A stretch of DNA of 64,000 nt from an uncultured Spirochaetales bacterium (GTDB taxonomy: Bacteria; Spirochaetota; Spirochaetia; Sphaerochaetales; Sphaerochaetaceae). The notes below the pieces were generated by a model, which was not told the origin of the DNA, made no database searches, and was given only the letters and a program-made list of their open reading frames with translations. The stretch covers positions 1 through 64,000 of the forward strand of contig CASENB010000016.1 in the NCBI GenBank assembly GCA_949289305.1, read 5' to 3'. This document shows, piece by piece, positions 31,475 to 34,454 of this stretch. Each line of letters begins with the position of its first letter. The stretch's first letter is position 1. The position numbers and the translations under genes were made by a program.

Positions 31475-34384
31475 TTACTGCCTTACTGGAATAATTGGAA
31501 TCAAATCGTTTTCATTTGTCGATTCTATCCACATATATTCAGATGAGTTTTTTATTAAAGAAGAATTCATAATTACAATTGCATCTGATAAATTTTCATC
31601 AGCAACAGCTTCACCAAACTCTTTTCCTGTTCCCCTATAATAGCATGAAACTATTTCTCCTGAGCTTATAGAGCTTATACCATTATCTGTTGAATAACAA
31701 CCTATCAGAGAACCTGCATTTGAATATACTATACCTCCTCTTGTAATAGAAGAACTAGCATTTCCACATGCGATAATCTGTGCTTCTGGCATTAAATAAC
31801 ATGCTATTCCAGCTGTAAAATCACTTCCCCATTCATCAATATTTGCATAATTGACAGAACCTTTTATAATACTGCCTGTATCAGCAGTTCCAACAATACC
31901 TCCTATTCTTGAAATTTGCGTAGAAGAGCTTGCTGAAATATGTTTTATATTGCCTTTTACAATGACATTATCTATTACTGCACCATTTTCTGCTCTACCT
32001 GCCACAGCTCCTATATATTTATTGTTCCCAGAAAAACTAATATTAGCATCCAATGTTAGATTTTTTATCGTTCCTGTAAGAGAACTTACAAAACCGAAGG
32101 CAGTATAACCAGAATTAACAGGGATAGACACCTTTAAATTACTAATAGTATGGTTTTTCCCATCAAAAACACCACTAAAACTTATAGATTCTAAACTATC
32201 TTCAAGTACTATATCATTTTCAAGATTTACATACATATTAGAAGATGAATGACCATCTGATATTTTTGTATTCCAATCTACTAGTCCAGCAGCGTTATAG
32301 ATATACCAAGTCTCTGTTCCATCTATATTTTCTATATAGTTATTTGCTTCAAGAGAAATTGAATTTGATGTATAACCGAAATAAGTAGCTGTTAATGAAT
32401 ATTCTTTTTCTACAAGACCTATTTCATTGTCATAGCTAGGAGAAATATTACAGTTTAAATATGGAATATTTCTTTGTTCATCATCCTCATATGTTGCAAC
32501 AATTTTATATCCAATATCAGAAAGCTTATCTCCTGAATTAAAATAATCATTCTCAACCGTTGCTTCCAGCTTACTGATTGTAATACCGTCTATTTCAAAT
32601 GAAACAGTTTCATTTCCTGTTTTTAAAACGACTTCCTGCTTATCTCCTAAGACAAAATTATTCTCTCCTTCTAAAGAGACTTGATTATTATTTATAAACG
32701 CTTTATTACCATTAGATAATTCTCTATAGACATTAAAATAATAGGATTTTAATTCATCACCTACATAAAATTTCTTATTAGCATCAGCAAGTTCAACAGA
32801 TAATCCTAAAGGAACAACTTCATAATCTACATAATGTGTTCCAACAGAACTTCCTTTATAATAAATTTTAACAGAAAAAGATCCTTCATTTATTTCTGTA
32901 GGATTAGTTGTAAAATCTAAAGAGTTCTCTTCAGTATAAGCAATATCTGTTTCTGTTCCATCTGTCATGACCAAAGTTATAACAAGTCCTGATAAATCAA
33001 CAGCAGAAGGTTTGTTATAATCTTTTTTTGTCGGGTATGTTTTTATATAAATACGTTCCAATTCAGGTTTATATTCTACTGAGAATTTTAATTCAAAACC
33101 TTTATAACTTACTACAACAGATGTATTATCTCTATTTATTACAGAAGGAGAGATAATAGTAAAAAGTTCAGGAGAATCATTATAAGAATCTTCTGTAATG
33201 CTACCATCAGACCATTCTATAGAAACGGAGAACCCAGTTAAATCAACAGCAGATTCTTTTAAATATGTCATTAATGATGGATTATTTTTAATTCTTACTG
33301 CTGTGATAACAGGTTCGTATTTCACATCATATATAACTGTTTGTCCATTATACGTTACATTTACAGTTGTAGATTCTGTTATAATTTCAGGAGAAACTGT
33401 AAAATCAGATGCATTATCATTAGAGTATTCTATCAATGAAGAACTGCCATCTGAATAATGTTCTTCTAAAACAAGTCCAGATAAGTCTACTTTTTCTTCT
33501 TTTTCATATTTTAGTTTTGTCGGTAATGTTTTTATAGTTATATCCTCTGAAACAGGTGTAAACTCTACATCAAAAGTAAAATTATATTTATTTTTATATG
33601 TGATGGTTATTGATTGCGTTTTTGAAACTGATTCTGGAGAGGTAACGAAGTATTCTTCAGTTCCATTTTCCCATTCGATTTCATGATAATTTCCATCCGA
33701 ATAAATTTCACGAACTTTAAGACCCTCTAGATTTACCGGCTCTTCTTTATAATAAATTTTTTTATTTGGATAGGATACAATTTCAACAATTTCAAGAATA
33801 GGATTATAACTTACATTAAATCTCGTATTACAACCGCCATAGTATATTGTTATTGATCCAGTTGAATTAACATAAGTAGGATTTGTAGTAAATAAAGAAG
33901 CATTTTCTTCATTATAAGCTACTTCTTCAACTGTACCGTTTTTCCATTCAACTTCTAAAATAAGGCCATTTAATGAAACAGGCTCAGAAGAAGAATATTC
34001 TAATTTATCAGGATTTTGTTTAATTCTTATTGATTTTATCGTATTTTCTTGAACCATGATAGTATACGAAGCGTTTATTTCAGCGGCTTCATATGAAACT
34101 TTAATAGTATATACCCCAGGTTCAGACATATTTACATTTGAAGAATCGATTATTATAGAACTATCAGAGGAAGAATCTCGCATTATAGAACTTCCATTCG
34201 CATAATAAATTAATAAATGAACAGTATCTTGTTCGTATTCGTCTCCTACAAAATAAACTTTACTTTGTAATTCATCTAAATTTGTAATTTCAATATTTGA
34301 AATCAAATCAACAGGCGTATTATTGCAAGCCATTATAAGAAAAACAAGTAAAACACTGAAAAACAAAGACAATTTTTTTACCAT
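31475..34384 (-). CDS. Large surface lipoprotein with five Ig-like repeats and a GLUG/beta-helix-like C-terminal region
   Basis: 969 residues from the ATG at 34384, which follows GGGGAG; the longer frame to 34441 runs through the promoter. The signal MVKKLSLFFSVLLVFLIMAC ends in a lipobox (Cys20). Residues of about 115-530 hold five repeats of roughly 82 residues, each with a pattern like IxNPxKxxYxxxExVDLSGLxxxxxWSDGS...FTxxPxxIN...TVxYxG, i.e. bacterial Ig-like domains of surface proteins. After two more beta domains, the last 250 residues have GTIKNLTLDANISFSG, IGAVAGRAENGAVIDNVIVKG and IGGIVGTADTGSIIKGSVNYA, GLUG-type beta-helix repeats. It is AT-rich, flanked by a direct repeat and driven by a G-tract promoter. 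Likely an outer-surface adhesin-like protein; ligand unknown. Confidence 0.85.
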   Translation of the reverse strand: MVKKLSLFFSVLLVFLIMACNNTPVDLISNIEITNLDELQSKVYFVGDEYEQDTVHLLIYYANGSSIMRDSSSDSSIIIDSSNVNMSEPGVYTIKVSYEAAEINASYTIMVQENTIKSIRIKQNPDKLEYSSSEPVSLNGLILEVEWKNGTVEEVAYNEENASLFTTNPTYVNSTGSITIYYGGCNTRFNVSYNPILEIVEIVSYPNKKIYYKEEPVNLEGLKVREIYSDGNYHEIEWENGTEEYFVTSPESVSKTQSITITYKNKYNFTFDVEFTPVSEDITIKTLPTKLKYEKEEKVDLSGLVLEEHYSDGSSSLIEYSNDNASDFTVSPEIITESTTVNVTYNGQTVIYDVKYEPVITAVRIKNNPSLMTYLKESAVDLTGFSVSIEWSDGSITEDSYNDSPELFTIISPSVINRDNTSVVVSYKGFELKFSVEYKPELERIYIKTYPTKKDYNKPSAVDLSGLVITLVMTDGTETDIAYTEENSLDFTTNPTEINEGSFSVKIYYKGSSVGTHYVDYEVVPLGLSVELADANKKFYVGDELKSYYFNVYRELSNGNKAFINNNQVSLEGENNFVLGDKQEVVLKTGNETVSFEIDGITISKLEATVENDYFNSGDKLSDIGYKIVATYEDDEQRNIPYLNCNISPSYDNEIGLVEKEYSLTATYFGYTSNSISLEANNYIENIDGTETWYIYNAAGLVDWNTKISDGHSSSNMYVNLENDIVLEDSLESISFSGVFDGKNHTISNLKVSIPVNSGYTAFGFVSSLTGTIKNLTLDANISFSGNNKYIGAVAGRAENGAVIDNVIVKGNIKHISASSSTQISRIGGIVGTADTGSIIKGSVNYANIDEWGSDFTAGIACYLMPEAQIIACGNASSSITRGGIVYSNAGSLIGCYSTDNGISSISSGEIVSCYYRGTGKEFGEAVADENLSDAIVIMNSSLIKNSSEYMWIESTNENDLIPIIPVRQ

Positions 34385-34421
34385 AAAAACTCCCCTCATA
34401 AAATTTAATTCACAAAAAAAA

Positions 34422-34454
34422 ATTCTACCTCCCCCCCCCAACTGAAAATGTCAA
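34422..34454 (-). promoter_or_regulatory. Promoter with a G9 tract in its -35/-10 spacer (probable phase-variable switch)
   Basis: On the minus strand TTGACA (34449-34454) and TAGAAT (34422-34427) are separated by 21 bp, and that spacer contains nine consecutive G residues (34431-34439) followed by AGG. The transcript would start near 34415, giving a 30-nt leader with a good SD before the ATG at 34384. Loss of four G would produce the ideal 17-bp spacing. A run of nine A/T (34413-34422 area) adjoins the -10 box. Confidence 0.8.

Follow-up and report, generated by a model that had tools for sequence, protein, structure and literature searches.

Whether the nine consecutive guanines lying between the two promoter hexamers of a lipoprotein gene could serve as a phase-variation switch, and at which length such a switch would be on, is the question raised by this locus. 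In the window, by which we mean the whole 64-kb stretch of DNA that was analysed, all elements of the promoter and gene are placed on the minus strand. The -35 hexamer TTGACA (34449..34454) agrees with the consensus in 6/6 positions and the -10 hexamer TAGAAT (34422..34427) agrees with TATAAT in 5/6. The 21 nt between them, in direct reading of the minus strand, are comprised of TTTTCAGTT, the G9 homopolymer (34431..34439) proposed as the slippage site within the spacer, and AGG (34428..34430), which separates the run from the -10. The Shine-Dalgarno sequence AGGGGAG (34390..34396) is located 5 nt ahead of the ATG (34384-34382) of a 969-aa lipoprotein ORF (31475..34384), characterized by a signal peptide with the lipobox LIMAC and by Big_3 Ig-like repeats. 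The original prediction had named the two hexamers 21 bp apart with nine Gs between them, which is exact, and a good Shine-Dalgarno followed by an Ig-repeat lipoprotein of 969 residues, which our annotation bears out. A T9 run (34414..34422) overlaps both the final part of the -10 and the presumed transcription start; it represents a second slippery homopolymer and could cause transcriptional slippage.

Big_3 Ig-like repeats are the sole Pfam match above the cut-off in the lipoprotein (2.5e-9), and matches to CBM_35 and GLUG in its C-terminal region are weak and below the Pfam cut-offs. The C-terminal region is similar to another lipoprotein encoded elsewhere in the genome (C5:109800). Among 46 congeners, no close orthologue of the 969-aa protein was found, the search disclosing weak matches to the C-terminal region and, once, to the N-terminal region. 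The locus was also sought in viral contigs and in plasmids, with no match in either. The lipobox signal peptide and the Ig-like repeats make the product a candidate for a surface-exposed protein. Upstream of the lipoprotein, the segment 35362-37270 of the window carries a DNA cytosine methylase-like gene with an N-terminal HTH, and the gene convergent to it may, judging from the translations, code for its restriction enzyme.

The G9 is the only G/C run of at least 7 in the window. The source assembly (2.27 Mb in 30 contigs) contains 16 G/C runs of at least 8 (three G8, twelve G9 and one G10), while a first-order Markov estimate based on 244 kb of this genome predicts ~5 runs of at least 8 and ~0.9 of at least 9, compared with the observed 16 and 13. 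With its nine bases, the window tract falls within the slipping range (at least 8) and into a length class that exceeds chance expectation. Exact TTGACA is found just upstream of 3/16 runs (binomial P ~4e-5), those being the window G9, C11:32430 and C19:32461, and each of the three lies in a lipoprotein promoter; at C11:32430, the layout is TTGACA-17-TATTAT ahead of the lipoprotein.

Intragenic runs of the source genome are found in three lipoproteins, two tandem type III methylases and surface-polysaccharide genes. In the lipoprotein at C5:109226, the coding tract is in frame, and the protein has GLUG motifs like those of the weak C-terminal match in the window protein. The methylases belong to a type III restriction-modification locus (contig C18, L082:6525-13633) in which two tandem N6_N4 methylase genes are followed by a Res-like helicase. 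Each methylase gene has a 9-base G/C tract (C9/G9) close to its start, and at the sequenced lengths both start frames are shifted off the long downstream frame; the arrangement suggests that this locus is likely a phasevarion. At least six G/C tracts of 8-10 are gathered in a surface-polysaccharide region (C23:62000-97000, L086-L088), within glycosyltransferase, acyltransferase, FrhB-like and Wzy-type genes, some of them in frame and some shifted. Outside the TTGACA class, a conserved tract was observed in two species upstream of related secreted proteins which share the motif YQLSPL..TYDPTGAGSA..Y.I.NDSDSP. It is a G9 at ~120 nt in the source genome (G000:C13:29273, L081:9274) and a G11 at ~73 nt in a congener (G032:C18:11542, L286).

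To describe the promoter class at a larger scale, we used the pattern TTGACA-N(0-14)-G8-N(0-14)-TANNNT, with the reversed pattern as a control. The pattern is present in 34/48 genomes of the genus, that is, the -35 hexamer of the window recurs upstream of poly-G runs in all of these, and the reversed-pattern controls gave 0. At the scale of the phylum, 52/393 genomes carry the pattern, and all but one of these genomes are in the same class. In one congener (G032), where all runs of at least 8 were collected without preselection for TTGACA, 13 of the 19 have the exact hexamer upstream (P ~4e-25). Up to about a dozen promoters of the class are found per genome, and their layout is stereotyped: TTGACA, ~10 nt, G8-12, TAGNNT, a short leader and a lipoprotein. 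The G run directly touches the -10, usually TAGNNT, in 124/128 listed related promoters, and ACC is often conserved just ahead of the run. The window copy fits this layout except that its run and its -10 are separated by AGG, and it is also atypical in having no ACC ahead of the run.

Genes behind these promoters are mostly lipoprotein genes. Taking one locus per genome (n = 30), the downstream ORF codes for a lipoprotein in 25, for a protein with another signal peptide in one and for a truncated signal-like start in one, with three uncalled. In five relatives with 40 class promoters, all of the 38 called downstream ORFs are lipoproteins, compared with 11/214 background ORFs in the genome of the window (Fisher 1.6e-35, an approximate value because the background filter was somewhat different). 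The lipoprotein ATG in relatives is positioned 13-63 nt beyond the TAG, mostly 22-43.

These regularities bear on two other explanations of the tract. One is that it is a chance homopolymer or an assembly artefact devoid of function, as could be argued for a single locus in a draft assembly in which the length of G runs is error-prone. The strong enrichment in the genome and across the genus, the fixed position with respect to TTGACA and TAGNNT, and the zero reversed-pattern matches all speak against it, and we regard it as very improbable. The other is a translational switch, in which the coding sequence would start at TTG 34441 (MGGGGRIFF...) and slippage would shift the frame; indeed, the frame is open from this TTG across the run into the lipoprotein. 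Yet no Shine-Dalgarno precedes TTG 34441, AGGGGAG and the signal peptide belong to ATG 34384, and in relatives TAG comes directly after the run, with the lipoprotein ATG further on by the distances given above. We therefore rejected TTG 34441 as the start of the lipoprotein, and hardly any weight is left for a switch of this kind.

A slipping tract is expected to differ in length between otherwise similar copies. Among copies with near-identical flanks, the number of Gs differs in 8/9 listed pairs (8/9, 8/10, 8/11, 9/10, 9/11). Matched promoters of two congeners (G018 and G032) differ in 4/6 pairs with runs of at least 8, and the G5 and G6 pairs (2/2) are identical. Differences confined to long runs match what slippage would predict. 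This comparison covers copies and species, not one population, and the lengths, taken from metagenome assemblies, may be off by one.

The spacing between hexamers allowed us to address which length would be on. In related promoters, the spacer has a mode at 19 bp (62/128 listed). A second survey, in which runs down to G5 were allowed, comprised 103 promoters from 13 congeners. Pure runs of at least 8 make up 88 of them, again with a mode at 19 (51/88), and the remaining 15, with short or interrupted runs, have spacers of 18 (seven), 19 (six), 20 and 21, none being 17. Lipoprotein genes behind the short or interrupted runs are mostly intact. Read most simply, these data suggest that 18-19 bp would be permissive in this clade, and the compact geometry of G-tract DNA offers a possible explanation for that centre. 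Consensus TTGACA/TATAAT pairs without poly-G gave 31 matches vs 19 in controls and no clear mode. In one promoter family (f24), the length of the G run correlated negatively with that of the non-G part, which was dropped as proof, as the search pattern itself excludes short spacers. In another spirochaete genus (G410, G256 and G082, with genomes of 2.8-2.9 Mb), a looser pattern recovered the same promoters as before, which frequently combine a short non-G part with a run of G12-16 and have spacers that are still 15-20 despite the long runs. As an illustration, one promoter of that genus, TTGACAAAAC-Gn-TAGAAT, carries G13 in one species but G16 in a second.

With its 21 bp, the window allele is 2-3 bp above the usual 18-19 and probably corresponds to a low state. 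It was predicted originally that the promoter is low or off at 21 bp and would be at its optimum of 17 bp after the loss of about four Gs. The mode of 19 in the clade, together with short or interrupted runs that are almost all at 18-19, does not agree with this, and because of these spacings the allele appears to be ~2-3 Gs too long, not four. The on-state would accordingly be expected at G6-G7 rather than G5, giving 18-19 bp.

The same spacings can be read differently, as a sign that the promoter is real and its G run is a fixed spacer, acting through DNA shape or binding of a regulator, with a length that is no switch. The clear 19-bp mode in relatives, the often conserved ACC ahead of the run, and the fact that lipoprotein genes are for the most part intact where the run is too short or interrupted to slip easily, are all consistent with it. 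Difficult to reconcile with a fixed spacer are runs ranging from 8 to 12 among copies with almost identical flanks and the predominance of pure runs of at least 8 (88/103) even when G5 and above were allowed. To these can be added the G8-G10 runs inside coding frames of the same genome, where length alters the reading frame. We consider a fixed spacer unlikely, and more plausible than chance or a translational start.

The reading we prefer, with a probability of roughly 0.8, is that the window G9 mediates slipped-strand phase variation of promoter spacing and is one of many contingency loci across the genus. In the proposed mechanism, G9 would be a hypermutable spacer in a sigma-70-type promoter of the lipoprotein. 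Slipped-strand mispairing during replication would add or remove Gs, and their number would determine how far apart -35 and -10 lie and how they are rotated relative to each other, and thereby the strength of transcription. The outcome would be a population in which expressing and non-expressing cells coexist, with a presumable role in evasion of immunity or phages, or in adhesion. Change of length within this species, its effect on transcription and the biological role are what we infer. The original view of a phase-variable lipoprotein promoter is thus strengthened by the genus-wide class, the length differences between copies and the spirochaete precedent; its optimum of 17 bp finds no support in this clade.

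On a broader scale, these uncultured, host-associated spirochaetes may possess a repertoire of lipoproteins in which each gene has its own copied poly-G cassette, so that individual cells would display specific combinations. The cassette would work at 18-19 and not 17 bp, perhaps through compact G-tract DNA. We put this forward tentatively, at slightly less than even odds. If true, combinatorial surface variation in the style of syphilis or meningococcus would be a lasting trait of gut-type spirochaetes about which little is known, and expression of lipoproteins in these metagenome genomes could not be read from gene content alone. The series of cassettes with differing numbers of Gs within single genomes would also provide a natural set for relating spacer length and G-tract shape to promoter strength.

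Outside spirochaetes, promoters of the form TTGACA-N-G9+-TATAAT-like were observed ahead of many secreted or surface proteins among the matches listed, with a pattern that forced spacers of at least 17. These matches include Streptobacillus notomytis (L167), Alphaproteobacteria (L106/L124), a further locus (L209), rabbit-gut Clostridia and Bacilli, and Saccharibacteria. Poly-G spacers may thus be a common promoter feature among host-associated bacteria.

The mechanism as such is already known, including in spirochaetes. In our literature search, we found no report of phase variation in Sphaerochaeta, and for poly-G phase variation in Treponema denticola it offered nothing beyond a review of syphilis vaccines and a genome paper that, judging by title and abstract, is unrelated. 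We found no earlier report of such cassettes recurring ahead of families of lipoproteins in uncultured spirochaetes, nor of the 18-19 bp centre. The locus was at first taken as apparently not tied to a described family, which does not hold, since poly-G between -35 and -10 controls tp0126, an OmpW homologue of T. pallidum, whose transcription peaks when the spacing is 17 (PMC7864442). Like tp0126, the window locus is a spirochaete promoter in which the length of a poly-G tract sets the spacing. It differs in that an Ig-like lipoprotein takes the place of the OmpW-like porin, related spacers are 18-19 instead of 17 nt, and the layout is repeated, with as many as a dozen or so copies in a genome. 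In the same species, tprE/G/J are transcribed at 8 Gs or fewer, the tprL tract ranges between 7 and 11 within isolates, and among 17 other tracts 76% were clearly variable (PMC7864442). The tprE/G/J and tprL tracts are upstream of surface-protein genes, as the window tract would be, but the tprL run overlaps the -10 region and does not set the distance between hexamers. In Neisseria meningitidis, the poly-G spacer between -35 and -10 of porA sets the level of expression (as cited in PMC7864442), in the manner proposed here, but porA is a single porin gene in an unrelated phylum, without a lipoprotein family of copied promoter cassettes. A cassette centred at 18-19 bp would mean that switch points differ from the rule of Neisseria and T. 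pallidum. Type III mod phasevarions, as suggested by the N6_N4 genes of the source genome, share the same mutational mechanism, with the difference that what is switched there is the reading frame and not the promoter spacing.
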